Origin: Lucinisca nassula
Taxonomy: Eukaryota > Mollusca > Bivalvia > Lucinida > Lucinidae
Length of the DNA stretch: 64,000 bases
Direction of reading: 5' to 3'
NCBI GenBank assembly: GCA_963580285.1
Contig: OY757016.1
Span: forward strand, 45,461,124 to 45,525,123
The notes beneath the pieces were generated by a model, which was not told where the DNA came from, did no database searches, and worked only from the letters and a program-made list of their open reading frames with translations. Position numbers and translations under genes: made by a program. Shown here one piece after another: positions 1,541-21,618 of this stretch; position 1 is the stretch's first letter, and every line of letters starts with the position of its first letter.

Positions 1541-1690
1541 TCCCACCCAAGCAAACACTTGTTTTTCTTTTGCGTAAATGTTTAAGATATTTCATGTTCT
1601 CGAGACATCGTTGTTTTATCCCTGAATTTGTTTGAGGCGGGTTTGAAATCCTCTAAAAAACGTGTTCACCAGAGAAGAACTAAGGCATTA

Positions 1691-1940
1691 GAAAAACACA
1701 CCTATACAAATACATAGTAATTTTTCCGCTGAAAAACAAACATTTTAAGATTAAACATTCTGATAGTTTCTTATTTGTGCTCAAAATATAGATTGTGGGT
1801 ACACGTTAGAACCGCCTCATCGAGGCGGTTCTAACGAGTACCTACATTCTATATTTTGAGAAGAAATAATAAAAATAAGGTTTACGCCTGTTAATATTAA
1901 AGTTGTGTTCAAGGGGGTTATAATTATATAGGCGTGATTT
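1691..1940. mobile_element. Palindromic MITE (AGAACCGCCTC family)
   Basis: Ends in inverted repeats related to CACGCCTATAT and ATATAGGCGTG. At its centre is a strong hairpin at about 1807-1840, made of a TTAGAACCGCCTC arm and its complement. No coding capacity. Matching copies are at 18735-18985 and 34920-35165. Confidence 0.75.
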
Positions 1941-2570: not shown

Positions 2571-2574
2571 TCTG

Positions 2575-3013
2575 GGTGATCGTCTCCAAAATGACCTTTA
2601 CAGTGTTGACGGGGACGTTAAACCTCAAATCAACCAACCAACCAACGACTGAGGGATCTCTTCAGGATATCTTTACGATCTTCAATAAAATAAAAAAAAT
2701 GTTGTGTGTGCTCATTAGAATCGCCTCACTCAGACTATTCTAATGAGTATGTACAACATACCTTTTCAATATAAACTCAGAGAAATTATCTGAACAGATG
2801 GATATCTTGGCTCCCGCCCATCGGGAATTGAAGAAATAGATGGGCTGCATGAAATGACATCTCAAGCCCTGTCGCCCAATGAAACCATTAGAGTTTATAA
2901 GCATGGACGGTCCGACTCGCACCACTTTGCCTGGGCAGGCTTAGATCCTCTAAGCGGATTACCAGTACTCGTGTGCGGTCGGTTTCAGCTCTGCGTGGAA
3001 GCATCATAGCCCG
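2575..3013. mobile_element. SINE fragments and MITE hairpin, composite
   Basis: 2590-2645 is a plus-strand SINE tail (GTTGACGGGGACGTTAAACC followed by a CCAA-rich run). 2706-2757 is a decayed MITE hairpin. From 2815 the sequence matches the 5' and middle parts of the same SINE family in the other orientation, including the ATGGGCTGCATGA segment. Counterpart at 19630-20065. Confidence 0.6.
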
Positions 3014-3342
3014 ATGGGCGGTGGCCATTTTGTCTCCCATGTCAATAGGGGTCAAAGGAGCAAATTCTTTCCTTTAAGAGTAGACCCCTTTTTCAGTAAG
3101 ACAGGTCTTAAAGAAAAGCGAACAGGAAGTCCCGAAAGTTGTCTCCCTTTGAAAAATGGCAATCCCCTTAAATTACATAACCAACAAGTTCCACATCTTC
3201 CTTCTACTCATTCGAATCACTTCCTTACAAACAAACTAAAGACCAGTTTTGAACAGTCCCAAAGGTGGTCTTAATATAGGAATTTTACTGTATAACTTGT
3301 AGTTTAGCTCTTTGCACTGGTTTCGTACTATGTTAAAACTTA

Positions 3343-3668
3343 AATATGTTCTAGAAAGGGTTATCCTTTGGAAGCAAGGAATACACAACAGAACTGGAAA
3401 ATGTGGAGTGTGCATGTTTTCTGGACCAGACTAGCTAGTTTCGGCCAATTAGGCCTCGTCAGTGACCCTCAAATATTTTCAAAATTCCACAATGGAATCA
3501 ATGATCCCAAAGGACAAGAAAATATAAACTACACTATGATGTAGGGCAGGGAGACATTTTACGACTGCCACACATTCCCCGACAACAGCTGTAGTGACGT
3601 TAATTATGTTCTAGAAAGGGTTATCCTTTGGAAGCAAGGAATACACCACAGAACTGGAAAATTAAACT
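3343..3668. repeat. Repeat with about 60-bp direct terminal copies
   Basis: TATGTTCTAGAAAGGGTTAT and the following 40 bases occur at about 3345 and again at about 3606. Between them are GCCAGACTAGCTAG and a GGCCAATTAGGCC-like motif. The same arrangement is found at 20390-20708 and, with more of a second unit, at 42817-43180. No coding capacity and no family recognised. Confidence 0.6.
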
Positions 3669-3945
3669 AAAACTTAAAAGCCTTAGGTCTTAAAAGGGAC
3701 ACTGACAAACCATATTGAACGAGATCTGACGGCACTCGATGCGACGACTGTTTAGGATGCCTCCTATTTGCTCAAGAATAGCAATGTTTGTAAAACTTGC
3801 AACAACTAAAAGAAACTAGAAAACCTCTGTTTTGCAAATTAACCTTCAAAAAGCTACTATTTGAAAGTTACCATACGTCACCATGCATGTGTTTGACTGA
3901 TTGCGCATGCGTACAATTTTAATCACAAATGCAGCTTTCACTTAC

Positions 3946-4131
3946 TTGTACATAGCATTTTAGCCTGACTCTGTGCCCAGACCCAACGGCCAGACGAATC
4001 ACATCGCACGACTCGTACTGCAGGAGATTTTTGGAAGCCCTTAGCGCACCGGTAAGAACAGTAGGCATTTTTCTTCCGGCTACATGAATATGAAATGTAC
4101 CCGTTGAGTATGTACCTCGGACAAAGATTCA
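3946..4131 (-). CDS. Sushi/CCP module exon (copy in unit 1)
   Basis: One internal coding exon of 186 nt on the minus strand. It has acceptor TTTTGCAG just above 4131 and donor GTAAGTG just below 3946, with phase 1 at both ends, typical for exons encoding complement control protein modules. The translation runs from NLCPRYILNGYISYSC through AYCSYRC.KGF to GRWVWAQ and ends in MLCT. It has six cysteines: the four canonical CCP cysteines plus an extra pair, the arrangement known from selectin-type sushi modules. CCP modules are beta-rich protein or ligand-binding domains of secreted or cell-surface proteins. It fits in frame after the exon at 20993-21175. Compared with that copy it has about 15 replacement codons, one synonymous codon and one extra codon, while the introns are nearly identical. 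It could be a dead duplicate, but its frame and both splice sites are intact. Confidence 0.8.
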
Positions 4132-4171
4132 CTGCAAAACATGATTTTTATATTAGGACAGCTTTGTTTGT

Positions 4172-4492
4172 TTGAGTTGAGGTTTTACGTCTCCCGCCAA
4201 CACTGCATAGGTCATTTTGGAGACGTTGCTTCCAATTTTGTGGGACTTTTACCCGACACTGAGATGAAATGACATCTCAAGTCCTGTCGCCCAATGAAAC
4301 CATTAGGGTTTATAAGCATGGACGGTCCGACTTGCACCGCTTTGCCTGGGCAGGCTAAGATCCTCTAAGCAGTTTACCAGTACTCGTGTGTGCGGTCGGT
4401 TTCAGCTCTGCGTGGAAGCGTCATGCAGCCCATCTATTTCTTCAAGCCCCGATGGGCGGGGGCCTTTTTGTCTCCCATGTCAAAAGGGGGCC
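4172..4492 (-). mobile_element. SINE (GACGTTAAACC-tail family), minus strand
   Basis: Starts with TTTGTTTGTTTGA (complement of the CAAA tail) and passes through the complement of GTTTCATTGGGCGACAGG and of the ATGGGCTGCATGA segment. The same family is at 9000-9300, 21212-21520, 39675-39985, 44375-44690, 44695-44955 and 53385-53640. The tRNA-like head is missing or unrecognisable here. Confidence 0.65.
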
Positions 4493-4618
4493 AACTCTTA
4501 AAGAAAAGAATTTGCTCCTTTGGAGCAAATTCTTTCCTTTAAGAGTAGACCCCTTTTTCAGTAAGACAGGTCTTAAAGAAAAGCTAACAGGAAGTCCCGA
4601 AAGTTGTCTCCCTTTGAA

Positions 4619-6641
4619 CAAGAGGGCCCAGAGGGCCCTGATTCGCTCACCAGAATGTCACTGTCTCTAGTACATTCTTTTTTTTGCTCTGGTGGCCATC
4701 TTGTTGATCAGAGTGGAACGATCTTAGCTATTTTGGTAGGATGTCACATAGGCAACATTCCTTTGAAGATTGAATCAAATTGACCCAAGGGTTTAGGAAG
4801 AGTTCGCATTTGAAGCAAATTTACAAAGTTTTTCTACTTTTAGCACTCGCGGCCATATTGTTCATCGGAGCGAGACCATTTTAGCTACATTTGTTGAGAG
4901 TCGTCTAAGCAACATTCCAATGAAGTTTAAATGTATTTGGCCCAAGGGTACAGGAGGGGTTGTCGTTTGATGATTTATTCTATTTTAGCCCTGGTGGCCA
5001 TCTTGTTTATCAGAGTTGAATGAATTTTACTTTTTTGGTAGGGAGTCACCTGGGCAACATTCCTGTGAAGTTTGAAGCAAATTTACAATGTTTTTCTATT
5101 TTAAGCTCTGGTGGCCATTTTGTTCATCGGAGCGGGATCATTTTAGCTAATATGGTAGAGGGTCAACGACATAATATTCCTGTGAAGTTTGAATCAAATT
5201 GGCCCAAGGTGTAAGGAGGAATTATCATTTGAAGAATTTTTCTATTTTTAGCTCTGGCGACCATCTTGTTAGTCAGAGCGGAACAATTTTAGCTATTTTG
5301 GTATGGAGTCAACGACACAATATTCCTGTGAAGTTTGAATCAAATTGGCCCAATGGGGTAAGAGGGAGTTGTTGCCGCGTTGAACGATTTTAGCTATTTT
5401 GGCAGGTAGTCACCTAACTAACATTCCTGTGAAGTTTGAATCAAATTGGCCCAAGGGCTGAGGTGGAGTTTGCGTTTTGACGTAAATTTACAAAGGTTTT
5501 TGCTGTTTTTAGCTTTGGCGGCCATTTTGCTCATGAGAGCGAAAACGTTTTAGCAATTTTGGTAGTGGATATTCTTAGCAACATTCCTTCGAAGTTTGAA
5601 TGAAATTGGCCCAAGGGTAAAGGAGGAGTAGTCGTTTGAAGAATTTTTCTTTATTTTTTTTTGGCGGCCATCTTGTTAGTCAGAGCGGAATGATTTTAGC
5701 TATTTCGTCAGGGAATCACCTACATAACATTCCTGTGACGTTCGACTCAAATTGGCCCAAGGGTTAAGGAGGAGTTCGTGTTTGAAGCAAATTTACGATG
5801 TTTTTCTATTTTTAGCTATGGCGGCCATTTTGCTCATCAGAGCAGAACCTTTTCAGCTATTTTGGTAGATGGTCACCTAAGCAACATTCCTAAGAAGTTT
5901 GAATGAAATTGGCCCAAGGGTACAGGAGTATTTGTCGTTTAAAGTTTTTTTTCTCCATTTTTAGCTCTGGCGGCCATCTTGTTTGTTAGAGCACAACGAT
6001 TTTAGCTATTTTGGTAGGGAGTCATTTGGGCAACATTCTTGTGAAGATTGAATCAAATTGGTCCTAGGGTTGAGGAAGAGTTTGTGTTTGAAGTAAAATT
6101 TACGATGTTTTTCTATTTTTAGCTATGGCGACCATTTTGCTCATCAGAGCAATACCGTTTTAGCTATTTTAGTAGAAGGTCACCTAAGCAGCATTCCTAT
6201 GAAGTTTGAATTAATTAGACTCTAGAGTACAGGAGGAGTTGTCGTTTAAAGAATTTTCTATTTTTAGCTCTGGCGGCCATTTTGTTCACCGGAGCGGAAA
6301 CGTTTTAGCTATTTTGGTAGAAGGCCACCTAAGCAACATTCCTATAAAGTTTGAATGAAATTGGCCTTAAGGTACAGGAGGAGTTGTCGTTTAAAGATTT
6401 GTCTATTTTTAGCTCTGGCGGCCATCTTGTTTAGTGGAGCGGAACAATTTCAGCTATTTTTGTAGAGAGTCACCTCAGCAATATTCCTATGAAGTTTTAT
6501 TGAAATTGGCTCAAGGGTTAAGGAGGAGTTAGCATTTAAAGCAAATTGTTGACGCCGCACGACACACGACGCACGACACACGACGCACGACGGACATTGA
6601 CCGATCACAATAGCTCACCATGAGCACTTCGTGCTAAAAAT
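4619..6641 (+). mobile_element. Pearl-like tandem-core element, unit 1 copy
   Basis: The left end has a perfect hairpin (AGGGCCC, loop AGA, GGGCCCT at 4623-4639) followed by TCGCTCACC. About a dozen imperfect core repeats of roughly 150 bp follow, each with GGCGGCCAT(C/T)TTGTT, TTTTAGCTATTTTGGTAG, GTCACCTAAGCAACATTCC and GAAGTTTGAAT. Then comes an ACG-rich microsatellite (6552-6595). The right end has AGCAC-TTC-GTGCT (6623-6635) and an A-rich terminus. This plan matches pearl elements described in bivalves and the tandem-core non-autonomous Helitron-like elements of insects. It is non-coding; the short frames across it are repeat artefacts. Confidence 0.75.
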
Positions 6642-6947
6642 GGCATTCCCCTTAAATTGCATGTTTTGCGAAGCATTCTTGCACAAGGATGGCAGCTTTT
6701 CGGACTTCCTTTTCGCTTTCCAATACAGTCAGCCCCTCAGGGTAACCGATATACAATCAATTATGTTGTTATGTGGTCGAGCACGTTTCCACTGGACCAC
6801 TTCTGTTATCTTCTTATTGTGTAAATTTTAGCGTATATGTTGTATTATATACACCGAAAATATAGGTCAACTACGCTGCATCGTTCCTTACCGTATATCA
6901 AATGCAATTGTTATGTTAAGGGCACCAAATAATTCGTTTTACATGAA

Positions 6948-7320
6948 CAAAGTACATGGAAAGCGAACCTCTGGTGCCAGAACATGACTAGCTGTAATTT
7001 CAGCCATGAAGTACCTCCAAACGAAGTACATGGAAAGCGAACCTCTGGTGCCAGAACATGACTAGCTGTAATTTCAGCCATGAAGTACCTCCAAACGAAG
7101 TACATGGAAAGCGAACCTCTGGTGCCAGAACATGACTAGCTGTAACTTCAGCCATGAAGTACCTCCAAACGAAGTACATGGAAAGCGAACCTCTGGTGCC
7201 AGAACATGACTAGCTGTAATTTCAGCCATGAAGTACCTCCAAACGAAGTACATGGAAAGCGAACCTCTGGTGCCAGAACATGACTAGCTGTAACTTCAGC
7301 CATGAAGTACCTCCAAACGA
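6948..7320. repeat. 74-bp minisatellite, about 5 copies
   Basis: AGTACATGGAAAGCGAACC recurs at about 6951, 7025, 7099, 7173 and 7247, a strict 74-bp period. Units vary mainly at TGTAATTTC/TGTAACTTC. The copy in unit 2 (23944-24168) has only three units, so repeat number changed after the duplication. Confidence 0.9.
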
Positions 7321-7322
7321 GC

Positions 7323-7600
7323 CATCACGTGATCAAGTCCGTGAAATGAAGACCCCCCTATACCCCACTTTATATAGAGAAAACTGGGGTTTAAGGGGGT
7401 ATACATTATTTTTCTTATTTTTGCTCCAATACATAGGTTGTGGGTACTCGTTAGAACCGCCTCACTGAGGCGGTTCTAACGAGCACCCACAATCTATGTT
7501 TACTGTATTTATAAGAAAAATATCACAGATTTTCATCAGAAAAATGGCCATTTTGGAGATGAGTAAAAATGCACAAATTTGCACGGGTGTGTTATCGTAA
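7323..7600. mobile_element. Palindromic MITE (AGAACCGCCTC family, subtype 2)
   Basis: Central hairpin at 7448-7483 with arms of about 16 bp, preceded by the CCCCACTTTATATAGAG tract and ending near GTGTGTTATCGTAATG. This subtype differs from the 1.7-kb copy in its outer parts. Counterpart at 24172-24450. Non-coding. Confidence 0.7.
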
Positions 7601-8224
7601 TGCCTTTACCGGATAAGCGCCTGATCGTCATTTTTTTACATAAGCTATACAGACATAAGCAATATTTCTGAAGGGGTATTAGGTTTACTTAAACTCTAGT
7701 AATCACTATACTTATCACCATTTTACGACATTATTTTAAACACACTTCTTTTATGAACAGTAATGCATTGAAATGACCAAAATCTCCTTTAATAAATATG
7801 TCATTTACAGCTATCTTCTATGAATATGGAATCCTGTCAAACACCCTAGCGGAAGAGTCCAATATGATAGTGATTTTAATTGTAGGACTTTTAAAGACTA
7901 TTCTATTAATTAACTAATTGAATAAGTATATATAGAATAACTAACGCCTAGTCTGATAGAGTCTTCGCTGTTCGTAATATGGATTCTCTTGACGTTTTTC
8001 AAACGGTCAGGAAAGGCTGATTCTAATGCACTTGCGTATGTAACGCAACGCCTGATTGAATAACGTCAAAAATTTGCGACAGTATATTCTGTGATATACT
8101 GTTGGAAACCCGACGTCATCACGTAACGTCGCTTTTCATTGGTTGGCATTTGACTTTACGCGACTCACAGCGGTTGCCGTTTTGTGTAAAACAATAGTTT
8201 TTAACAAATTAACCGAATTAGTGC
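7601..8224. other. AT-rich stretch, no gene seen
   Basis: Present in both units (unit 2 at about 24450-25075) with little divergence. No coding frame, RNA gene or clear repeat structure was recognised. Confidence 0.5.
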
Positions 8225-8227
8225 ATT

Positions 8228-8378
8228 AGAATGGGGGATAACTGCACTACAAAATTGTCATTTTTGGAGATAAATCGTCCGTTTACGGTCGCAAATTCCG
8301 TTTAACGGCGCGTTTCCGACCGTAAAACCGCCGATTTACCGCCACAAATTACAATTTTGAATACAGTTATCCCTTAAT
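8228..8378. mobile_element. Palindromic MITE with GGGATAACTG ends
   Basis: Inverted repeat of about 70-bp arms: GGGGGATAACTG at the left and CAGTTATCCC at the right, with internal TTTACGGTCG and its complement. Related copies are at 25080-25236 and 26195-26375. Non-coding. Confidence 0.7.
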
Positions 8379-8493
8379 TACATCTGCTTCATAGGCTGAT
8401 TTGTGTCTTCGCTGACGGCACATTCTCGAAAATCCCTTTTCGATTGACGTTGCTCATATTATCTCATTACCTCAAATCAAACAAACAAACGAA

Positions 8494-8764
8494 AACACGC
8501 CTATATAAATACATTGTATTTTTTACCTCCGAAAAATTGAAATTTTTAGATGAAAAATTGTGATGTTTTTTTTTTTATTTCTACTCAAAATATAGATTGT
8601 GGGTACTCGTTAGAACCGCCTCATCGAGGCGATTCTAACGAGTACCCACAATCTATATTTTAGAGCAGAAATAAGAAAAATAAGGTTTACCCCTGCAAGC
8701 CCCAGTTTTACTATATAAAAGTGGGTTTGAGGGGGTCAAAATTATATAGGCATGTTTTCGTGAT
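8494..8764. mobile_element. Palindromic MITE (AGAACCGCCTC family), full length
   Basis: Left end CGAAAACACGCCTATAT, right end ATATAGGCATGTTTTCG, central hairpin at about 8602-8650. Unit 2 has no such element: there the sequence reads straight through at about 25325-25345, so this copy was inserted in unit 1 or lost from unit 2. ATTACCTC occurs on both sides. Confidence 0.8.
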
Positions 8765-8924
8765 GTATATTACCTCGCACAAGAATGTTTTGCGTTCACC
8801 CCTTCGTACTTTACAATTACTGAACTTCGGAATAAAAGCCCTTACTCCCTTTCACAATTTAAACTGGCGCGTCACCGTAAAACGAAATTTCCGACCTGAT
8901 GCCCTACTGACCCTCACGTCAACA

Positions 8925-9480
8925 AGTCCGTAAAATGAAGACCCCTCCAAACCCCACTTTATATAGAGAAAACTGGGGTTTGCGGGACTATTTGTTTGTT
9001 TGTTTGAGTTGAGGTTTAACGTCCCCGTCAACAATATTTAGGCCATTTTGGAGACGTTGCTTCCAATTTTGTGGGACTTTTACCCGACATTGAGATGAAA
9101 TGACTTCTCAAGCCCTGCCACCCAATAAGGCCTAAATGCTTATATGCACTGGACAGTCTGACTCACATCACTTTACCTGGACATGCTTAGTCCTTCCAAG
9201 CGCTTTACCAGGAATCATGAGTGGTCAGTTTCAGCTCTGCGTGGTAGCAACATGCAGCTCAATCTATTTCTAAAAGCCCCAATTCGCGGAGACGCCTTTG
9301 CGTTGGTATACATTATTTTTCTTTTTTCCGCTCTAAGACATGGGTTGTGGGTACTCATTGAGGCGGTTCTAACAAGCACACTCAACCCATGTTTGGAGTA
9401 TAAATAAGTAAAATATCACAAATTTTCATCAGGAAAGTAGCCTTTTTCCGAATATGTAAGAAGACACTATGTCGCACGGT
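8925..9480. mobile_element. Subtype-2 MITE split by a SINE
   Basis: 8930-8990 carries the left part of the subtype-2 MITE (ACCCCACTTTATATAGAG). At about 8990-9300 a minus-strand SINE interrupts it (TTTGTTTGTTTGAG start, CACTTTACCTGGAC middle). The MITE resumes at 9300 with the TATACATTATTTTTC tract and ends near GTGTGTTATCGTGATG. The SINE insertion is therefore younger. Confidence 0.65.
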
Positions 9481-9487
9481 GTGTTAT

Positions 9488-9637
9488 CGTGATGCCTCCC
9501 AGCAGGCACATGACGTAATTGTGACGTCACATCGACGTCGGTTAAACGTGATAACGTTTATGTAACGTCACATCAACGTCGGTGCAACGTCATGACGTTG
9601 CACCGACGTTGATTTGACGTTACCCTAGCGACGTGTG
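9488..9637. mobile_element. Short palindromic MITE with 62-bp near-perfect palindrome
   Basis: Ends are GCAGGCACA and TGTGCCTGC. The core at 9562-9623 is an inverted repeat with 31-bp arms and one mismatch, built from repeated ACGT-containing words such as CAACGTCGGTGCAACG. Unit 2 (about 26770) reads from GTGATGC directly to TTCGGTCTTTGG, so the element is an insertion specific to unit 1. Confidence 0.8.
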
Positions 9638-9774
9638 CCTGCAGGGCTCGGTCTTTGGACTTGGAAAATAGTGCATCACGTCGTCAAAAACACCGAGGGA
9701 CGATAAAAAGAACCTTCCAATAATTGTTTATTGTTTTCTGTAAGGAGGATCTTACGCAAGAGGACAATTCAATA

Positions 9775-9975
9775 TATTTATAGATATCCATAATTATTTA
9801 TGGATATTAATAATTCGACTTATGGATATCCATAATTCAGATCGATTTATGGATATCCATAATTCAGATCGATTTATGGATATCCATAATTCGAATTATG
9901 GATATCATTAATTCGAAATATGGATATCCATCATTCGGTCCATTTATGGATATCCATAATTCGATTTATGACTAT
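9775..9975. repeat. ATGGATATCCAT palindromic satellite, block 1
   Basis: Repeated ATGGATATCCATAATTCG words, with the self-complementary core ATGGATATCCAT, at variable 18-27 bp spacing. Related blocks are at 11023-11215, 26895-27065 and 27120-27440. Confidence 0.85.
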
Positions 9976-9991
9976 CGTCTTGGCAAAGAAA

Positions 9992-10658
9992 TGTTATAGG
10001 GTATAGAAATAAAGCATACTTGTACTGCCTTGCGGTACAAGGCGACTTTTATAGCGACGTGGTAGAGTGTTTGCTCACCAATCCGGCGGCCCGGGTTCGA
10101 TCCCCGGCCGGGTAACGGTGATTAGCATTTTTTACCCCACTTGTGCATTACAACTCCTTCATAATCATAATCTCCCAGAAATTCGAGGACGGATTTCAAT
10201 GTGGAGGGGAGAATGTAATAGGGTATAGTTATATAGCATACTTGTACTGCCTTGCGGTACAAGCCGGCTTTTATAGCGACGTGGTAGAGTGTTTTCTTAT
10301 CAATCCGCCGCCACGGGTTCGATCCCCCACCGCGCTAAAGGCATGTAGCTTTTCTTCATCTGTTACATTTGGCGACCACCGTTAATTACCCACGCGTGCA
10401 TAAGAACTCCTTAAGTATCATTTCACGTGATTCTCGGACTCCCAGAAATTCGAGGATGAATTTTAATGTGTCGGGGTCGGGGTCGGGGGGGGGGGTTGAG
10501 AATGCCATAGGGTATAGGTGTATAGCACACCTGTACTGCCTTGCGGTACAAGCCGGCTTTTATAGCGACGGGATAGAGTATTTGCTTAACAATCCGACGG
10601 CCCGGGTTCAATCCCCGGCCGAGTTAAGGTGATTAGCATTTTTTTTTCACCTGTTACA
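9992..10658 (+). mobile_element. TRIM-like array of three short LTRs with tRNA-like Pol III boxes
   Basis: Three direct copies of a roughly 155-bp unit lie at about 9992-10150, 10214-10367 and 10503-10658. Each starts TGT(A/T)ATAGGG or a variant, and the last two end CTGTTACA, so they look like LTRs with TG..CA ends. Copy 2 is followed at once by a possible primer-binding site (TTTGGCGACCACCG, 10368-10381). Copies 2 and 3 are preceded by G-rich polypurine runs (10201-10213 and 10467-10502). Internal regions are only about 65-135 bp, as in terminal-repeat retrotransposons in miniature. Inside each LTR is a GTAC hairpin, then a tRNA-like segment with an A box near TAGCGACGTGG (10052-10062) and B box GGTTCGATCCC (10094-10104). 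The anticodon arm does not pair well, so this is not a functional tRNA gene. Confidence 0.65.
10052..10116 (+). other. tRNA-like segment with A and B boxes (first of three)
   Basis: The D-loop-like A box and T-arm are recognisable: CCGGG, loop TTCGATC, CCCGG form a perfect 5-bp T stem. A and B boxes start about 42 bp apart, as in tRNA genes. The acceptor 5' strand does not match the CCGGGTA 3' strand and the anticodon stem is not formed. Repeated at about 10275-10338 (B box intact) and 10565-10628 (B box with one change). Confidence 0.65.
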
Positions 10659-10739
10659 TTTCACTCAATAACAAATAAAATGAATAGCTTACAAATAGAA
10701 GACTGCATTCACCATTGGAAATCTAGGCTTCTTCGAATG

Positions 10740-10953
10740 CAGTCGCATGACATTTGGAGAAACAAAATGCCCCAGCCACATTCAAAAGGTTAATGGGGCG
10801 TTGTATGGGTGAAATGAATCTCAAGGAATGTCTTGATGATATCTTAATCTTTTGGGAAACTTTCGAAGAACACATTTCTAGGCTTGAAGCTGTTTTTAGC
10901 CTTTTAAATAATCGTGGTTTAAAACCAAAAGCATCTAAATGTGAGTTTTTTTA
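10740..10953 (+). pseudogene. Ty3/gypsy reverse transcriptase fragment
   Basis: The frame carries NAPATFKRLMGRCMG, then CLDDILIF, then TFEEHISRLEAVF and KASKCEFF, which is the palm region of Ty3/gypsy reverse transcriptase. About three residues before the catalytic DD pair are missing compared with the usual CL-hydrophobic-Y-hydrophobic-DD arrangement, and the frame ends soon after, so it is dead. It lies 80 bp past the LTR array and may be left from the parent element of that array, or be unrelated. Absent from unit 2. Confidence 0.8.
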
Positions 10954-11022
10954 AGTGTTCTGTTAGTTGCCTTGGTCATACCAATACAATAAATAATGAC
11001 TGAAGCCAAAGGCTTTTGCGGT

Positions 11023-11215
11023 GAATTATGCATATCCATAATTCGAAATATGGACATCCATAATCCAGCCCGATTTATATATATCCATATTTCGATTTAT
11101 GGATACCTATAAGTCGAATTATGCATATCCATTATTCGGCTGATTTATGGATATCCATAATTCGAATCCAGAATATCCATAAATCGAATTATGTATAACT
11201 ATAAATATGGTTTAA
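11023..11215. repeat. ATGGATATCCAT palindromic satellite, block 2
   Basis: Same words as at 9775-9975. In unit 2 the two blocks are only about 55 bp apart, whereas here they are separated by the LTR array and gypsy fragment. Confidence 0.8.
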
Positions 11216-11249
11216 ATAGTAAAACGGCAACCAAAACATTTCATTATGA

Positions 11250-11520
11250 ACACACGCCAATTAAAAATATTGAACATTTAACCACTATGAATATTTTTTT
11301 TTTTTCAGATAAAAAATCCTGATTTTTTTGTATTTCTGCTTGAAACATAGATTGTGGGTACTTGTAACGACCGCCTATGTGAGGCGGTTCTAAAGATTAC
11401 ACACAACCAATGTTTTTGAGCAGAAATGAGAAAGATAATATATACCCCTTTAAACCTAGGTTTTACTATTTAAAAGTAGGGTTTAAGGGCTCAAAATTAT
11501 ATAGGCCTGTTTGCGTGGTG
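11250..11520. mobile_element. Palindromic MITE (AGAACCGCCTC family), diverged
   Basis: Central hairpin near 11355-11395 with mismatches, flanked by the TTTCTGCTTGAAACA and TTTTTGAGCAGAAAT arms, ending near TATAGGCCTGTTTGCGTG. Counterpart at 27465-27725. Confidence 0.65.
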
Positions 11521-11732
11521 TAATACGAAATTTATGAAACCTGACATGGCTGGTTTGGTTTATTTTTAATGAGTGAGTGAGTGTGTTTAAGCTTTACGTC
11601 CCACCAACAGCTAAGGTCATACGGAGACGGGGCCTCGGTTTAAAGACTCATCCGAAAGTCTGTTTATTTTTAAGGAAACAGCCACGAATGAGCGCCCAAC
11701 GAATATCTTCTACTGTCATAAGCTATTAATTA

Positions 11733-11876
11733 ATAGAGGATCTTACATGAGTGCTCATGCATTATTGAATTCATTAAATGAGTTGAGGAAAAGGGATATA
11801 ATGCGAGGCTTAGCCGAGCGTTTTATCCCCTTTCCTCAACGAATTAAATAAATTCAATAATAGATGAGCACGAAAG
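11733..11876. repeat. Fold-back inverted repeat of about 145 bp
   Basis: Left arm words GAGTGCTCATG, ATTATTGAATTCATT and GAGGAAAAGGGAT are mirrored as ATCCCCTTTCCTC, AATTCAATAAT and ATGAGCAC. The turn lies near GGCTTAGCC. Unit 2 has the same fold-back at 27950-28075 with better pairing. Confidence 0.75.
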
Positions 11877-12152
11877 CAAGATTCTATTTATCATATGACA
11901 TTTAAAACGCATTTTATTCACGATTGTTTTACAAAAAGTATCAATATTCCGCCATCAATAAACGCGACGTCGTTAAGGACGTCGTACATATAACGTTACG
12001 TGGCGTATCTGACTAATTTGCATGTATAATCCACTAGTTGATTATCAAATTCATTACACGGCGTTATTACACACTCAGACGCGACGTCATATGATAAATA
12101 GAGTTTATATGGTTTTTTGATCGATTTCGGTGAAAGCATTCACAAGTTTTCT

Positions 12153-12222
12153 AAGGCTTCCGAGTAAAAAAACGAGTGAGCGATAGCGAACGAGTTTTTT
12201 TACACGAAAGCCTTAATACACG
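12153..12222. repeat. Fold-back inverted repeat of about 70 bp
   Basis: AAGGCTT..GAGTAAAAAAACGAGT is mirrored by CGAGTTTTTTTAC..AAGCCTT around GAGCGATAGCG. Private to unit 1. Confidence 0.6.
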
Positions 12223-12775
12223 AAAGAATTATTTCTCCGTAATCAATCAAAACAACAAAATAAACTGTTTATTACATTTACATTCATGTTTTGACTTTGA
12301 ATTTTCAAATTCAACCATTCTGGTTTTCATCTAAAATAGTTTCCGTCAGGGTATGGATTTCAGGAGGCGTGGTTTAGTTTCAAAATCAGTCGGCATCTTG
12401 TTTTCTTTTCAATGCAAAAATCACCCTTTCCTTGAAATACAGATGTGCAAATGTCATGAAATTAGAACTGTACTTTCAAGAAAATAATACTTTATCTTCG
12501 TGTTGCAGGTCTCTCCTCAAAAACGTCAAATGGAAGCAAAATTTGAAGTCTGATTTCTATGATTTTGTCAGATTTTCCGTCAAAGGTCAACTATTGTTAT
12601 TGTTGTTACCAACGACGTCAGCAACGTCGCTTAGCAATTATGACGTCAAAACGTTCGAAACGAAGAAATGAAATAAATCACAGTTGAATGATTATCAGGA
12701 TCTCTGTCACCGAGAAAAATAGTTAATTCATTGTTAGAAATGTAATAAAACATTTTAATGACGTTTGTATTTGAT
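12223..12775. other. AT-rich stretch, no gene seen
   Basis: A plus-strand frame of 79 codons (12432-12671) has no recognisable domain and no support. The stretch is unit-1 specific. Nothing else was seen. Confidence 0.45.
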
Positions 12776-12779
12776 ATGT

Positions 12780-13170
12780 TTTGAAATTACACATTATGGT
12801 CATTAAGAAAGTATATGAATCGCTCACCTTTCTACTTCACAATATTTACATGTATATTGGATTTGGCACAAAATTAAACGGACAAATTTTGAGAATTCAA
12901 ATCGGTACGAATTGCGCACGACTAATGGCTGATTTGTTCTCGCACTGATTTGAAAGAGACTTCATGATTTATCTTTCAAAGAAGAGGCGAATGACTAAAT
13001 ATTGGTTATACCTACTGCAAGTGTTTTTTTTTCAGTCAATCTTAGCTTTCAGAGCTCTTGTTCTGATACCAAAGCCTTGATGTTTAATTTATTATTGCAT
13101 ATTTTAGAAGGATTAATTGATGTAAAATTTAAAGTAAACGCGATGATTCTGATTTTGAGATCATCGGCTC
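12780..13170 (+). pseudogene. Degenerate PLE reverse transcriptase fragment
   Basis: Broken frames include IQIGTNCARLMADLF, which aligns with IPMGTNCAPLVADLF of the fuller PLE (16315-16360), followed by FERDFM and later the FDFEI-like tract. Catalytic YLDD is lost in an internal deletion. A LINE 5' fragment abuts at about 13171. Confidence 0.75.
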
Positions 13171-13655
13171 ACGCTCTCGCCCCCTGCACAGTGATTTTCT
13201 ACGTTTGTGAGACGGTTCTGAATAGACTGAACAGATATCAGTACCTCATCGATTCGCGCACATTCTTAGGCTATGTCAAGTGAAAGTTCGTGTTTCAACG
13301 ACTTCATTTTACTCTCAATACTTTGCATCAACACAGTTTATAGTCTGTCCATCTTACTCTCAAGAGTCTTTTTCATACAAACTTGGTTCTTTTTAATGTC
13401 AGTTTTGTCGCCATCTTGTTTTGTTTAGGACCTGGCTTAGGTGTTTCCCTCCGACGATCTATCTCTCTTTTTTTGTTCCTTACAGGAGAATCTGGCATAA
13501 CTTACATACAACATGAAATCCAAGGAACAACTAACACGTTCATATAAAATTCCATTTATACCCATGCCAAAAATGAAATTTAAACCCATATTTTGATCAC
13601 ACTGAAAAATTTCATTGTCCATCGAAAGTAGTCCGCGTATGAATGTGAGGGGTAA
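13171..13655 (-). mobile_element. LINE 5' fragment (ORF1 start region)
   Basis: Nearly identical to 32308-32790, the 5' end of the LINE in unit 2, but with no LINE body. The minus strand carries the basic SCKEQKKRDRSSEG tract. Directly beyond it, ACGCGACGTCGTTAAGGAC recurs; the same word follows the empty LINE site at 11962. Confidence 0.75.
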
Positions 13656-13789
13656 AAACGCGACGTCGTTAAGGACATCGAACATGTTACGTTACGACGC
13701 GTATCTTACTAATTTGCATGTTTAATTCACCAGTTGGTTATCGAATTTATTACATAGCGTTAATAACGCTTACACACTCAGACGCGACG

Positions 13790-14760
13790 TCATATGAAAA
13801 AACATTTTAATGACGTTTGTATTTTATATGTTTTGAAATTACACATTATGGTTATTAACAAAGTGTGTGAATCTCTCAAATTTCTATTTCGCAATACTTA
13901 CATGTATGTTGGATTTGGTACAGAATTAAACGGACAAATCGTGAGAATTCAAATCGGTACGAATTGCGCACGACTAATGGCTGATTTGTTCTTGTACTGA
14001 TTTGAAAGAGACTTTTCGTAAAATCGTTCTTCGATATAAAAAGATTGGGTACAATATGGATATTATACGACAGACTGCATGCATGGTAGTTAACCCAATC
14101 ACGGTTGGCAACTTTGATTCCCTCTTTAATTGCACGCTGGTGGGTCAGGCCTAAGATTCTATGACGGTACCAACGTAAAAGCTTATTGAGAATTAGAGAG
14201 ATCTAATTCAAGGTAATGTTGGTTGGTGCCTGATGCTCTGTCTCTGGTTGGGCCCATCGGAGTCTAACTGTTGGTTTTCTTTTGCTCCAGCATTTCAGTG
14301 GTTTTTTTGCTGTCGAGTCCCCACCGTTGTCTCACCTCTGTGGTTCTTTGATTATTTGTGTTCACGGAGATGTTGCACTGATGAGTTAGGAGGCCTTCAT
14401 GCGGACTGAACAAATTATTTGTCTAAATCGCGGCAGAAGTAAGGGCGAGGATTCTGGCCACGTAAAATCGGTTTCAGCCCCCTAGTGGAAATCTTTCCAC
14501 TGACCGTTCCAAGGCAGTTCTTCTGTGGCGATTTATTTATGTTGCTGTTTGTTACTTACTGTGTGTATCACTTGTGTCTTTTAATTTTGGATGGCCATAT
14601 GGCCATTTTGTGGGAAAGTAACTGTCCCTATGGCCTTCCTTTGTTTAGGTGTCCATTATGGTCTGGTCGCTTAATGTTTGTATTTCTTTCCCTTTGGTGT
14701 CTTTGATGGGTGGAGTAAGTTAATTGTATCGATTCCTGATCTTTGTTTTACTTCTACTTT
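13790..14760 (+). mobile_element. Degenerate, internally deleted PLE
   Basis: Starts with PLE palm residues (IQIGTNCARLMADLF), jumps to the carboxy-terminal tract RYKKIGYNMDIIRQTAC and continues into the PLE 3' region. Nearly the same deletion derivative is at 32930-33690, so it predates the duplication of this segment. Confidence 0.75.
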
Positions 14761-14829
14761 AAACGTAAATTACATGCTTTTAAACGAAACAATACTAGAC
14801 TGAAGTGACTGTCAATTATATTATATTAT

Positions 14830-17126
14830 TAAATCATGGACGCCACTCTATGCTTTCGTTTCTAAGTTCATTCGGTTTTACGTCTTCTGGACACCGAGGC
14901 GAATAAATTCTACGATAGTTCTTATCAGTTATATGATGCGGCTTTCTTAACTAGAGGCTATACTCAGCATACTCTCCGTCCTTACATTGATTCTGAAATT
15001 AATCATAAACGCCATTTCTTCAAAATATCCTTCATTAATAAGGGTATGGATTTTATAGATTTGCCCAGTATTTTCCGTGAGAGCTCGGTGCTTTCTTCCA
15101 TTCCTGCTTATTTTCAAAATACTGAAACACCTATAATTTGCTATAAATATAACAAACCTATTAGATCTATCATTTTTAATTTCAATAAACTTGTTTCAGA
15201 TCTTGATATTGATACTAATACTCCTGATTCATGTGATTGTAAAAACTCAGTGTATTGCTATCCTGCTGCTGGTCATGTAATTACTGGCAATTTGAAAATT
15301 ATTCCTGATTCTAGGATAAGGAATATAATTTCTAAGGACCGAAATATCGGTTTCCTTCTAAAATTGAATTCAGTTAATGTAGAGATGAAATCGCTGCTGC
15401 CTTGAATGAATTCGGTAATAGATGGTGTAAGCGAGAGTATGTTGAGCATAAAGCCCTTAAGGACTGGAAACTTAGCATTTTAAAACTAGTGAATGAGCGC
15501 ATTTCTTTCTATTCTCAAAATACTAACTTATTACCCCCTAAGCCTAAAGACGTCTTTACGTCATCTTAAACTAGGTATTCAAGAATTTCAGAAGTTTGTT
15601 TTGGCCTCTGCAGACAAGGCCGCTAACAACGTCGTCGTTGTGTGACGGCTCCACTATGTTAACACGCTTAAACAGGAGCTTGGTGGTACTAAGGCCTATG
15701 AACTTCAGCCTTTAGCTGAAGAGAGAGCTATAGTATTTAAACATATTTGTCATTCAGCCACCAAGTTTGCTGTGTGTGTTACTGAAGGTCAAGACAAGCT
15801 TTCTACGCTTTATTGGTTACCAAAAGTTCATAAAAGACCTTACAAAGCACGGTTTATTGCAAATTCTAGCTCTTGCACTACCACTGAACTTTCTAAATTG
15901 TTAACTTCCTGCCTTACTGCTATTAAAACGCACGTGATTAAATATTGTGATAAAGTCTTTGAAAGATCAGGAAGAAATCTGTTTTGGTCTATAAAATATT
16001 CGAATGAGGTTTTAAATAAATTGAAATCCAGACGTTTTCGTGCTTTAAGTCTGTCTACTTATGATTTTTCCACTCTTTACACAACACTTCCTCATAATCT
16101 TATAAAAGAAAAGCTTAATGATTTAATTGAACGGGCTTTTCACAGAGAAGATTCTCTCTATCTTGCATGTGATGTCAGAAATGCATTTTTCACTTCTAAA
16201 GAGCATAAGAATTATACACTTTGGTCATGTCAGAAAGTGTGTGATGCCCTCACCTTTCTACTTGACAATATTTATATTAGATTCGGTACTAAGTTATTTA
16301 GACAAATTGTGGTTATTCCGATGGGTACGAATTGCGCACCTCTTGTGGCTGATCTGTTCTTGTATTGTTATGAAAGAGACTTCATGTTGTCGCTTTCCAA
16401 TGATAACCAATCTGAAATTATTGAAGCTTTTAGCTCCACTTCTAGATATTTAGATGATTTATTAAATATTGATAATACCTATTTCGATGGTTTGATCAGT
16501 CAGATTAACCCCCAGAACTTCAGTTAAATAAAGCAAATTCTTCTGAAACCGAGGCCCCGTTTTTTGATTTACATCTATCTATTGTAGATGGGCTTGTTTC
16601 GTGCAAAATTTATGATAAACGCGATGCATTTGATTTTGAGATTGTAAATTTTCCTTTTTTGGATGGTGATGTTCCTCGTGCACCATCCTATGGCGTTTAT
16701 ATTTCGCAATTAATTCGATTTGCTAGAGTGTGTAGTCATGTAACTGACTTCAACACTCATAATAAATTATTAACGGCTAAACTTCTTAATCAGGGTTATC
16801 AGTACCATAAACTACGCAAAGCCTTTTCAAAATTTTATAGACGTCATTCTGATTTAATTTCAAAATTCAATATTGGACTTAAATCTCTTCTGCAACAAGG
16901 TCTATCGGAACCCGAATTTTATGGTGACTTAGTTTATAAATTCAGAAAAATATATAGCCGCAATGACTTCAGAACCCAATTTCGTAAAACCATTCTTCGA
17001 TATAAAAAGATTGGGTACAACATGGATGTTATACGACAGACTGCATGCACGGTTGGCAACTTTGCTTCCCTCTTTAACTGCACGCCTTTGGGTCAGGCCT
17101 CGGATTCTATGACGGTTCCAACGTAA
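14830..17126 (+). pseudogene. Penelope-like reverse transcriptase, most complete copy
   Basis: A retroelement polymerase read in pieces: 15046-15405, then a shifted frame to about 15640, then 15660-16527 and 16540-17126. The N-terminal part has SCDCKNSVYCYP and GHVITGNL. The palm has LYWLPKVHK, ARFIANSS, YDFSTLYTTLPH, IPMGTNCAPLVADLF and catalytic SRYLDDLL (about 16440-16465), diagnostic of Penelope-like elements. The end is HVTDFNTHNKLL, QGYQYHKLRKAF, RYKKIGYNMDVIRQTAC and a final MTVPT. Breaks are a frameshift near 15345, another near 15560, an in-frame TGA near 15642 and a frameshift near 16515. No GIY-YIG endonuclease motif was seen at either end, though the 5' end may be incomplete. It is flanked on both sides by decayed PLE pieces in the same orientation. 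Confidence 0.85.
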
Positions 17127-17915
17127 AGGCTTATTGAGAATTAGAGAGATCTAATTCAAGGTAATGTTGGTTGGTGCCTGATGCTCTGTCTCTGGTCGGG
17201 CCTATCGGAGTCTAACTGTTGGTTTTCTTTTACTCCAGCATTTCAGTGGTTTCTTGCTGTCGAGTCCTCACCGTTGTCTCACCTCTGTGTGGTTCTTTGA
17301 TTATTTGTGTTCACGGAGATGTTGCACTGATGAGTTAGGAGGCCTTCATGCGGACAGCAAATTGTAAAACGTCTCCCCGTACATCAACCATAGTGCAGTT
17401 TATATTTTACTTTTGGTCCTTTGAGATCAGCGTGAATATTCTGAGGAATCAGAAATAAATTATTGGTTTAGACTCGTATTCTAGACAAGTTTTTAATTAT
17501 TTGGCCCCATTTTGATTTATATCAGTCTTTGAATCGACTGCCTATTCGAAATTCACAAAATTGCAGTATGCTTCCTCTGGCTTTCTTTGCCGGATCATTA
17601 CAGGGTCACTGATGAGGCTTTATTAGCCGAAACTACGTAGTATGACCCATCTTCTGTCTTATGAATGTTTTCATTGCTCTTAAAGGAACTCATTTTTGAT
17701 TTTTATTTGTCTAAATCGCGACGGTAGTAAGGGCGAGGATTGTGGCCACGTAAAATTGATGTAAGCCCCCCAGTGGAAATCTTTCCACTGACGAAATCTT
17801 TGCACTGACCGTTCCAAGGCGGTTCTTCTGTGGCGGTTTATTTATGTTGTTGTTTGTTACTTACTGTGTCTACCACTTGTGTCTTTTTATTTTGGATGGC
17901 CATATGGCCATTTGT
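17127..17915 (+). mobile_element. PLE 3' non-coding region, unit 2
   Basis: Continuous with the PLE ending at 17126, and corresponds to 83-870 in unit 1. It contains a short fold-back at AGTGGAAATCTTTCCACT (about 17770). Confidence 0.75.
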
Positions 17916-18104
17916 TGAAAAGTAACTGTCCTTATGGCCTTCCTTTGTTTAGGTTTCCATTATGGTCTGGTCGCTTCATGTGTGTGTTTCTTTCCCTTTG
18001 GTGTCTTTGTTGGGTGGAGTAAGTTAATTGTATCGATTCCTGATCTTTGTTTTACTTCTACATTTTTAATGATTTCTCTTTCTAAAGAAGAGCAATCTGA
18101 ATTA

Positions 18105-18570
18105 TCGATGTCTTAATATGAGAAGGAATAACTGAATATTGGTTATACCTACTGCAAGTTTTTTTTTCAGTCAATCTTAGCTTTCAGAGCTCTTATTCTG
18201 ATACCATAACCTTGATGTTTTATTTATTATTGCCTATTTTAGAAGGATTAATTGATGTAAAATTTAAAGAAAACGCGATGATTCTGATTTTGCGATTGTA
18301 AATAGTCCATACTTGGATGGGGATGCTCCACCTGGGGCGGCCTAAGGTTTTTATAACCATTTAGGTTTGCTAAAGTGTCTAGTCATGTTATTCACTTCAA
18401 TACTCGAAATAAATAATGAATTACCTAAAATTGGAGATCAGGGTTATTGAACTTATCGATATCATAGACTCCAAAAAGTGTTTCATAAAATTATAGACGC
18501 CAATTCGATTAAGTTTCAAAATCAATAAATTCAGTAAGACTTTTATGTAAGTCGCTTGCTGACTAATGTT
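18105..18570 (+). pseudogene. Degenerate PLE carboxy-terminal fragment, unit 2
   Basis: Counterpart of 1060-1540 with the same stops and frameshifts plus a further 1-bp loss near 18520, so decay preceded duplication. Confidence 0.7.
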
Positions 18571-18734
18571 TCGTCTTTGATCGGTCCCACCCAAGCAAAC
18601 ACTTGTTTTTCTTTTGCGTAAATGTTTCAGATATTTCATGTTCTCGAGACATCGTTGTTTTATCCCTGAATTTGTTTGAGGCCGTTTAGAAATCCTCTAA
18701 AAACGTGTTCACCAGAGAAGAACTAAGGCATTAG

Positions 18735-18985
18735 AAAAACACACCTATACAAATACATAGTAATTTTTCCGCTGAAAAACAAACATTTTAAGATGAAACA
18801 TTCTGCTAGTTTCTTATTTGTGCTCAAAATATAGATTGTTGGTACACGTTAGAACCGCCTCATCGAGGCGGGTCTAACGAGTACCTACATTCTATATTTT
18901 GAGAAGAAATAATAAAAATAAGGTTTACGCCTGTTAATATTAAAGTTGTGTTCAAGGGGCTTATAATTATATAGGCGTGATTTGT
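18735..18985. mobile_element. Palindromic MITE, unit 2 counterpart of 1691-1940
   Basis: Same ends and central hairpin; one arm has GGGTCTAACG instead of GGTTCTAACG, which breaks one pair. Confidence 0.75.
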
Positions 18986-20389
18986 CTACTTACAACTGAC
19001 CGACAAACTTTGATTTATTGCTCAATAAATCACAGACTAGAGCTCATCTATTTCGATTATAACACGCTGAAAATCGGCAAAAATGTTGTTGTTTCCTCCG
19101 AATTCTCACAACTTTTCGCCAATGTAAGAAAGAAATCCCGCATAAATTAATGACTGCAACACATGCATTTGGGTCCTTTTGTAACGTTTGGGTGCGATAA
19201 AGAATCTACATGTGGCGTCATAAATTGACAGCCGCAAGTTTTTAACGACGTCACTCGGCACGCTCTTCCGCACCATGATTTGTTGCATAATAAAACACGG
19301 TTCCTTCCCATTTTTTTTACAGATTTAACAGATAACAAACAATTTTACACAGATCTTTGGCGTCGATGCTATAAATAACCGTAACTTGGATTTTGTGCCT
19401 GGTCAGCCATAGTCACGTGGGCAAAAGCAAGCTGGGGAGCCTCTGTGGTAAGTAACTTTAAGTCGATCGATAAACAGTCGAACATTGTAAATTGAAGTCA
19501 GTTGAACTTAATAATTCCAACCTTTCAGGAGCCATGACAATTGTTCGAGCTTGGGGTAGTTCTAATTACTGAGATTTTTTTGTATAGTGCCAGGTCATGA
19601 CGTATGCTTAGTAATCACTTCTGGGTGATCGTCTCCAGAATGACCTTTACAGTGTTGACGGGGACGTTAAACCTCAAATCAACCAACCAACCAACGGCTG
19701 AGGGATCTCTTCAGGATATCTTTACGATCTTCAATAAAATAAAAAAATGTTGTGTGTGCTCATTAGAATCGCCTCACTCAGACTATTCTAATGAGTATGT
19801 ACAACATACCTTTTCAATATAAACTCAGAGAAATTATCTGAACAGATGGATATCTTGGCTCCCGCCCATCGGGAATTGAAGAAATAGATGGGCTGCATGA
19901 AATGACATCTCAAGCCCTGTCGCCAAATGAAACCATTAGAGTTTATAAGCATGGACGGTCCGACTCGCACAACTTTGCCTGGGCAGGCTTAGATCCTCTA
20001 AGCGGATTACCAGTACTCGTGTGCGGTCGGTTTCAGCTCTGCATGGAAGCATCATAGCCCGATGGGCGGGGGCCATTTTGTCTCCCATGTCAATAGGGGT
20101 CAAATGAGCAAATTCTTTTTAAGAGTAGACCCCTTTTTCAGTAAGACAGGTCTTAAAGAAAAGCGAACAGGAAGTCCCGAAAGTTGTCTCCCTTTGAAAA
20201 ATGGCACTCCCCTTAAATTACATAACCAACAAGTTCCACATCTTCCTTCTACTCATTCTATTTACTTCTTTACAAACAAACTAAAGACCACTTTTGAACA
20301 GTCCCAAAGGTGGTCGTAATATAGGAATTTTACTGTATAACTTGTAGTTTAGCTCTTTGAACTGGTTTCGTACTATGTTAAAACTTAAA

Positions 20390-20708
20390 TATGTTCTAGA
20401 AAGGGTTATCCTTTGGAAGCAAGGAATACACCACAGAACTGGAAAATGTGGAGTGTGCATGTTTTCTGGGCCAGACTAGCTAGTTTTGGCCAATTAGACC
20501 TCATCAGTGACCCTCAAATATTTTCAAAATTCCACAATGGAATCAATGATCCCAAAGGACAAGAAAATATAAACTACACTATGATGTAGGGCAGGGAGAC
20601 ATTTTACGACTGCCACACATTCCCCGACAACAGCTGTAGTGACGTTAATTATGTTCTAGAAAGGGTTATCCTTTGGAAGCAAGGAATACACCACAGAACT
20701 GGAAAATT
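20390..20708. repeat. Repeat with about 60-bp direct terminal copies, unit 2
   Basis: Counterpart of 3343-3668, with both direct copies of ATGTTCTAGAAAGGGTTATC present. Confidence 0.6.
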
Positions 20709-20992
20709 AAACTAAAACTTAAAAAGCCTTAGGTCTTAAAAGGGACACTGACAAACCATATTGAACCAGATCTGACGGCACTCGATGCGACGACTGTTTA
20801 GGATGCCTCCTATTTGCTCAAGAATAGCAATGTTTGTAAAACTTGCAACAACTAAAAGAAACTAGAAAACCTCTGTTTCGCAAATTGACCTTCAAAAAGC
20901 TATTATTTGAAAGTTACCAAACGTCACGCATGCATATGTTTGACTGATTGCGCATGCGTACAATTTTAATCACAAATGCAGCTTTCACTTAC

Positions 20993-21175
20993 TTGTACAT
21001 AGCATTTTAGCCTCACTCTGTGCCCAGTCCCAACGGCCAAAATTACATGTCACGCCTTGTACTGCAGGAGATTTTTGGAAGCCCTGGGCGCACGTGTAAT
21101 AACAGTAGGCATTATTCTTCCGGCTACATGAATATGAAATGTACCCGTTGGGTATAGTCCTCGGACAACCATTCC
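20993..21175 (-). CDS. Sushi/CCP module exon (copy in unit 2)
   Basis: Internal exon of 183 nt, minus strand: acceptor TTTTGCAG above 21175, donor GTAAGTG below 20993, phase 1 at both ends. Read from the second complete codon, the translation has GCPRTIPNGYISYSC, AYCYYTCAQGF, a GVTC, GRWDWAQ and ends MLCT: six cysteines, the canonical NG, GF and W positions, closer to a textbook CCP than its sister at 3946-4131. Role by family: a ligand- or protein-binding module of an extracellular protein. It fits in frame between the exons at 35939-36118 and 3946-4131, and lacks its own start codon. Surrounding intron sequence is almost the same as in unit 1, whereas the exon differs at about 12 percent of positions, almost always changing the residue. 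All cysteines and tryptophans are kept. Confidence 0.82.
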
Positions 21176-21211
21176 CTGCAAAACATGACTTTTATATTAG
21201 GACAGCTTTGT

Positions 21212-21522
21212 TTGTTTGATTTGAGGTTTTACGTCTCCCGCCAACACTGCATAGGTCATTTTGGAGACGTTGCTTCCAATTTTGTGGTACTTTTACCCGA
21301 CACTGAGATGAAATGACATCTCAAGTCCTGTCGCCCAATGAAACCATTAGGGTTTATAAGCATGGACGGTCCGACTCGCACCGCTTTGCCTGGGCAGGCT
21401 AAGATCCTCTAAGCAGTTTACCAGTACTCGTGTGTGCGGTCGGTTTCAGCTCTGCGTGGAAGCGTCATGCAGCCCATCTATTTCTTCAAGCCCCGATGGG
21501 CGGGGGCCTTTTTGTCTCCCAT
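21212..21522 (-). mobile_element. SINE, unit 2 counterpart of 4172-4492
   Basis: Same orientation and end points; lies about 35 bp from the CCP exon acceptor in both units. The downstream TCTTAAAGAAAAGAATTTGC tract of unit 1 is shortened here. Confidence 0.65.
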
Positions 21523-21618
21523 GTCAAAAGGGGGCCAACTCTCAAGAGTAGACCCCTTTTTCAGTAAGACAGGTCTTAAAGAAAAGCTAACAGGAAGTCC
21601 CGAAAGTTGTCTCCTTTT

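Follow-up and report, generated by a model that had tools for sequence, protein, structure and literature searches.

A recently duplicated complement control protein (CCP, or sushi) exon of the bivalve Lucinisca nassula has diverged about five to eight times as far as the noncoding DNA that was duplicated with it. The two copies, exons A and B, lie in a window of 64,000 nucleotides, the whole stretch analyzed here (assembly GCA_963580285.1, contig OY757016.1, positions 45,461,124 to 45,525,123). Counting the split first codon, 21 of their 183 aligned bases differ (11.5%), or 20 of 180 in whole codons, and a 3-base indel separates them as well. The rest of the duplicated block over positions 1–8000 differs at 112 of 7598 bases (1.47%; Fisher p=3e-12 against the exon), which puts the exon at about 5 times the noncoding rate of 2.1% found in 1–4244 and about 8 times 1.47%. 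We modestly favor a recent segmental duplication, at about 2% divergence, followed by repeated positively selected replacement in one CCP module. The comparison involves four features, given in window coordinates:

3946..4131, minus strand: CCP/sushi exon A; 186 bp, phase 1-1, 61 whole codons plus a split codon, six cysteines; Pfam Sushi PF00084, E=2.1e-05
20993..21175, minus strand: CCP/sushi exon B; 183 bp, duplicate of A minus one codon, phase 1-1; Pfam Sushi, E=0.00016; protein 77% identical to that of A
1..8473: copy U1 of the duplicated block, truncated where the window begins, with exon A; defined by self-BLAST and by alignment with 17044-25336
17044..25336: copy U2 of the block, with exon B; defined by self-BLAST and by alignment with U1

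Divergence is concentrated in the exon

Exon divergence significantly exceeds that of the flanking intron, as accelerated exon evolution requires. Flanks 50–450 bp from the exon differ at 9 of 759 bases, gapped columns being excluded from this and all other difference counts between exon and noncoding DNA (p=1.2e-09 against the exon's 21 of 183). Across the 8473-base alignment, no 183-column window holds more differences than the exon plus its edge (3967–4152, 22 differences), and the excess spans about 165 bp (3967–4131). When differences were shuffled over 1–8000, a range that leaves out 8001–8473, where window 8233–8416 holds 20, the densest 183-column window reached 14 in 5000 shuffles; the exon holds 21. 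A codon model with both rates fixed at the intron value was likewise rejected (p 3.2e-12 to 3.3e-09).

Changes replace residues and spare the module framework

The exon differences mostly alter the protein. Among the 60 whole codons that align, 14 encode a different residue, as does the split codon; a further codon is inserted or deleted, and a single one changes synonymously (GCT/GCC), adjoining K30Q in a two-base run. Grouping adjacent differences yields 15 events, none purely synonymous (p=0.026 at a neutral share of 0.22). All six cysteines and both tryptophans of the W.W motif are retained, both copies have the borders ...ttgcag / exon / gtaagt, and neither contains a stop. In trials with 20 random substitutions, just 2.9–3.2% kept every cysteine and tryptophan and created no stop.

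These counts refine an earlier note on this DNA. It had placed both exons at exactly these coordinates, and splice sites, phase 1-1 and open frames agree with it. The indel, the split-codon replacement, the lone synonymous codon and the retained cysteines and tryptophans stand as described, while its approximately 22 differing bases and 15 replaced whole codons become 21 and 14. Its intron divergence of about 2% is borne out in the 120 bp upstream of the acceptor (3 of 120 differ) and does not extend to a uniform background, which varies between 2.1%, 0.7% and 7.5%.

Replaced residues probably sit at the module surface. Some replaced sites (x) alternate with conserved ones, in C24-x25-Y26-x27-C28, V41-x42-C43-x44 and W48-x49-W50, a residue pattern suggesting that the exchanged side chains would face outward. 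Module A carries a net charge of +10 and module B one of +4; a difference of 6 has p 0.02–0.03 under random replacement, for a measure picked after data inspection. The window also holds two older paralogues:

35939..36118, minus strand: CCP/sushi exon C; 34% identity to B, phase 1-1; Pfam Sushi, E=7e-06
42055..42264, minus strand: CCP-like exon D; 32% identity to B, phase 1-1; six cysteines aligned with those of A–C

Of the columns that vary between A and B, C and D share a residue at 3 of 13; of those constant between A and B, at 18 of 43 (gapped columns left out). The A/B-variable sites are therefore not clearly hypervariable across the older exons.

A probably recent, tandem duplication

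Four further features bear on the age of the duplication:

34058..35228: U3, an incomplete third copy lacking exon A/B; identity about 98% to both 835-2004 and 17879-19047
13162..14579: another collinear block, duplicated at 32300-33698; its 1420 aligned columns contain 26 mismatches and give a second estimate of the age of the duplication
4245..8070: part of the A/B block with low divergence (26 of 3620 differ, 0.7%); composed largely of tandem repeats and starting 113 bp upstream of the acceptor of exon A; change point p<1/2000
8101..8473: patch of raised noncoding divergence; 28 of 372 differ (7.5%); overlaps a dispersed repeat (8123-8383, a 74% match to 26089-26374)

Two of five collinear noncoding blocks, 1–4244 (86 of 4048 differ outside the exon, 2.1%) and 13162–14579, show near-2% divergence, and U3 does likewise. 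We favor recent duplication with accelerated exon replacement because a divergence of about 2% recurs in these two distant blocks and in the third copy. A three-way comparison of U1, U2 and U3 has 30 variable ungapped sites, at which U3 differs alone in 12 cases, U2 in 11 and U1 in 7; these private sites occur in mixed order, U3's making up 5 of the first 6. A third A/B-like exon in U3 was considered and rejected: profile hits near 820, 17873 and 34040 are weak (E 0.4–0.7) fragments without the cysteine frame.

The units carry unlike mobile elements, a reverse-transcriptase frame at 15646–16524 in U1 and frames resembling long interspersed nuclear elements (LINEs) at about 28300–32200 in U2, with no counterparts in the self-comparison. 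Older direct repeats of about 85–94% identity lie at unit edges (2–319/659–1020; 14098–14416/14415–14760; 16980–18064; 33146–33698). They are a possible substrate for unequal crossing-over behind the tandem units.

Several results temper the case for selection

A number of observations weigh against positive selection as the cause, foremost the ratio of replacement to synonymous rates (dN/dS). By Nei–Gojobori pathway counting (NG86), 3.0 changes are synonymous and 17.0 are replacements, with dS 0.082, dN 0.131 and a ratio of 1.6 that is not significantly above 1 (Fisher p=0.57). The count reaches 3.0 despite one synonymous codon because multi-hit codons add synonymous steps. A maximum-likelihood codon model, run on 60 codon pairs with split and gapped codons left out, gives dS 0.058–0.071 (interval about 0.01–0.20), dN 0.147–0.159 and a ratio of 2.1–2.75, again not significantly above 1 (likelihood-ratio test p 0.14–0.29). 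With about 39 synonymous sites the dN/dS test is underpowered, and we dropped a ratio above 1 as a stand-alone claim, both estimates being non-significant. Synonymous divergence also exceeds the intron if the baseline is the low right-hand rate of 0.79% (p 0.02–0.03), and random substitution trials produced one or no synonymous codon in 8–10% of cases.

The mutations themselves may be unusual. Runs of adjacent substitutions make up 5 of 15 events in the exon and 3 of 109 outside (p=0.0006), and multinucleotide mutation may lie behind them, inflating the count of changed codons. Multinucleotide mutations have reportedly been connected with false inference of selection in published papers. Runs of adjacent bases would be equally expected from repeated hits under selection or from multinucleotide mutation. 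As to position, 4 of the 14 replaced whole codons (27, 42, 44 and 49 in B) fall within predicted strands.

Noncoding divergence is patchy as well. It drops sharply at 4245, from 2.1% to 0.7% (permutation p<1/2000, on 1–8000), 113 bp from the exon. The noncoding window 8233–8416 ranks second with 20 differences (the third-ranked has 9), the 8101–8473 patch and the exon are not significantly different (p=0.15), and five substitutions cluster in the intron at 3833–3889. In all, three of the five collinear noncoding blocks depart from 2%: 4245–8070, 8101–8473 and 11026–11961. The last is 85% identical to 27257–28162 (93 mismatches in 943 columns), with satellite and dispersed repeats inside and unalignable neighbors. 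Because noncoding divergence has a change point at 4245 and a 7.5% patch, conversion or recombination was probably active within the locus, with one border 113 bp from the exon. The data are two sequences without polarity, and exon use is read from splice sites and open frames alone. We rejected 8101–8473 as another exon; six-frame translations of 8000–8560 and 24850–25420, judged by eye, held no exon-like frame.

Diversifying selection after duplication, proposed in the earlier note, nevertheless stands as the best-supported reading, through the excess of exon over intron, the coding constraint and the absence of purely synonymous events among the 15. Its proposed check of dN/dS against intron divergence came out in two parts, a strong intron contrast and a dN/dS that does not significantly exceed 1 (p 0.14–0.57). 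The note's alternative of introns homogenized by gene conversion gains from the change point and the 7.5% patch and loses from the two blocks at about 2%.

Older exon lineages are the main rival

The main rival holds that the exon difference is older, carried by earlier-diverged copies or by allelic lineages captured in the duplication, with introns since homogenized by conversion or recombination and selection keeping the exon variants. Older exon variants amid homogenized introns are a pattern known for the binding exons of the major histocompatibility complex. We regard this history as possible, if on the unlikely side. The synonymous estimate of 0.06–0.08 exceeds the intron rate and lies near the 7.5% of the 8101–8473 patch, but that patch overlaps a dispersed repeat. 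An NG86-like count of 3 of 39 synonymous sites differs from introns (p=0.02), whereas the per-codon count of 1 of 39 does not (p=0.44), 1 of 19 four-fold sites differs, and in the codon model dS is consistent with intron rates of 2.1% (p 0.15–0.23) and 1.5% (p 0.08–0.12). The abrupt shift in intron divergence so near the exon, and the two more blocks exceeding 2%, suit homogenization; the two distant blocks near 2% do not, nor do the private sites of U1, U2 and U3, whose mixed order, judged without a run test, does not form long conversion runs.

It is doubtful that an unsampled paralogous CCP exon overwrote one of the copies through a short conversion tract. Such an event would suit the confinement of the excess to about 165 bp, the enrichment of adjacent-base runs and the presence of related CCP exons nearby. 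A donor with only its exon still homologous should however give a high dS, above 0.3 by our estimate, where the upper limits are 0.16–0.20. Those limits led us to set aside conversion from an old donor and disfavor the earlier note's suggestion that the exon came from another, old paralogous locus. A young donor would probably bring intron along. The window offers no donor: 12-mers of exon A recur nowhere else in it, a lone 15-base stretch of exon B is matched at 57871, and C and D, at 34% and 32% identity to B, are poor candidates.

Still less probable is an assembly or haplotype artefact in which a single contig combines two alleles as U1 and U2, the exon difference being allelic diversity. 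A divergence of about 2% is ordinary heterozygosity for marine bivalves, but the partial third unit, the differing mobile elements and the older nested repeats fit a true tandem duplication, and the exon excess remains even if the copies are allelic. Least probable of all is a germline repertoire of recognition modules in which exon-confined, partly multinucleotide mutation renews swappable CCP cassettes in very long introns and leaves the introns unchanged, a reading supported by the adjacent runs and opposed by a transition share that does not differ significantly between exon (6:15) and surroundings (52:60; p=0.16).

A model for module diversification

Under duplication followed by positive selection, a segment of about 17 kb with a single symmetrical (phase 1-1) sushi/CCP exon would have duplicated in tandem recently enough to leave about 2% noncoding divergence. 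One or both exon copies would afterwards have gained replacements at several times the noncoding pace. Cysteines, tryptophans, frame and splice sites were preserved and residues partly alternating with the conserved core exchanged, giving a module of other charge. Being phase 1-1, either copy could be included in a transcript or skipped with the reading frame intact. Such modules would probably serve as a CCP repertoire with differing binding surfaces, for immune or gamete recognition; recognition proteins frequently change their residues at this kind of pace. Of this model, the duplication, the exon excess, the coding constraint and the charge difference are observed, and selection as the cause, outward-facing positions, exon use and a recognition role are proposed.

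Bivalves lack antibodies and live under dense microbial exposure, and the origin of specificity in their recognition proteins is open. A young duplicate marks testable sites, including residues 25, 27, 30, 39, 40, 42, 44 and 49 of module B. Comparing exon with intron can expose an excess that a dN/dS test on 60 codons lacks the power to reveal.

The CCP locus

All four exons have canonical AG/GT splice borders on the minus strand within the window and share six aligned cysteines and one invariant tryptophan in a protein alignment. Bit scores for PF00084 are 25.2 (A), 22.4 (B) and 26.8 (C) against a cut-off of 20.7. Exon D has no Pfam match by itself to this curated profile, and a profile built from A–D includes it, so its score on D is not independent. 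Searched with that profile, the window's 1670 stop-to-stop frames of 25 or more codons yielded no fifth CCP exon that passed the inclusion threshold. Exons A–D may be parts of a single gene.

Structure comparisons give weak matches to CCP modules. The best sequence-profile matches among solved structures are CR1, C4b-binding protein and factor H (E 2.6e-06 and up). The predicted fold of the exon B module has a predicted local distance difference test score (pLDDT) of 79.9 and a predicted template modeling score (pTM) of 0.56. Foldseek with this model placed CCP modules on top among the 50 matches listed, with weak E-values of 0.11 or worse and query template modeling (TM) scores of 0.41–0.59. 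These weak sequence and fold matches, to C4BP, factor H, CR1 and E-selectin, imply no orthology. Selectin repeats also carry six cysteines, and standard complement CCPs carry four.

Searches for relatives and partner domains returned little. A protein search needing exact shared 5-residue words and similar length found no candidate for exon B alone, an absence that means little; for joined exons A–D, the same kind of search gave 167 candidates with none at E<=1, which also means little, some bivalve proteins being covered. Among viral contigs, where animal genes are not expected, a profile search for CCP exons gave 5 pattern stretches, none confirmed, and a 24-base DNA pattern from these exons gave 0 matches. 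The Pfam scan covered 20 open reading frames (ORFs), four of them the CCP exons; the window has 316 of at least 55 amino acids. The 16 further ORFs yielded one match above the curated cut-off (THAP) and three reverse transcriptases below it, the rest being weak or without match. Minus-strand frames of at least 50 amino acids from 41 kb onward were also inspected by eye, and no signal peptide or membrane exon was identified in the scanned ORFs or these frames. Rfam gave 0 matches on the window.

Comparison with known systems

Accelerated exon evolution is itself a known pattern. Snake venom genes reportedly show it as accelerated segment switch in exons to alter targeting (ASSET), their introns being similar where the mature-peptide exons differ. 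In primate segmental duplications, the part of the study drawn on here describes exon divergence significantly over flanking intron, enriched in duplicated exons, with an example of 0.20 in exon and 0.04 in intron and a replacement excess; exons with an intron difference below 0.01 were dropped (PMC3906575). The exon-over-intron excess is the same here, but that work compared the human assembly with human and macaque reads, and ours compares two copies of a sushi module in one bivalve sequence. Conotoxin genes resemble our case in having similar introns beside differing exons: the portion consulted reports four C. striatus toxins with different cysteine frames and more than 84% intron identity (PMC3862624). 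Those exons encode secreted venom mature peptides, not a CCP fold, and venom is not indicated here.

Sushi proteins offer looser parallels. Ciona vCRL1, as presented in the part consulted, is a highly polymorphic sushi-domain protein initially proposed for fertilization and allorecognition and later tied to the blood system, not to self/nonself recognition (PMC8849226). Its polymorphism is among tunicate individuals, and we draw the likeness by description. In the bivalve Mercenaria mercenaria, a species-specific orthogroup with a Sushi/SCR/CCP domain has expanded to 14 genes (PMC8905726); the two cases are likened by domain only, and the portion of that report consulted contains no test of exon against intron divergence. 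No published report of such an exon/intron contrast in a bivalve sushi gene appeared among the matches listed, which comprised titles and abstract starts from few subscription journals and are weak evidence of novelty.

Other features of the window

Copy U2 contains a LINE-like element (29815–30489 and 28357–32174, minus strand) whose matches to reverse transcriptase and, weakly, to endonuclease stay under the Pfam cut-off; U1 showed no equivalent. Reverse-transcriptase frames below the cut-off also occur at 15646–16524 and 29109–29474. The 29815–30489 frame had 115 hits at E<=0.001, most without a species name; the named animals are all bivalves (Mytilus galloprovincialis, Mytilus coruscus, Ruditapes philippinarum and Ostrea edulis). 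One further hit, labeled as a Candidatus Thiodiazotropha taylori metagenome bin, perhaps reflects host contamination, this bacterium being a symbiont of lucinid clams.

An open frame at 58563–58814 (minus strand) encodes a THAP zinc-finger domain (E=4e-08), possibly from a transposase or a host gene. A tandem array at 37276–38989 holds about 10.7 copies of a 161-bp unit, and arrays of a 43-bp near-palindromic unit lie at 44008–44238 and 57903–58104 in opposite orientation.

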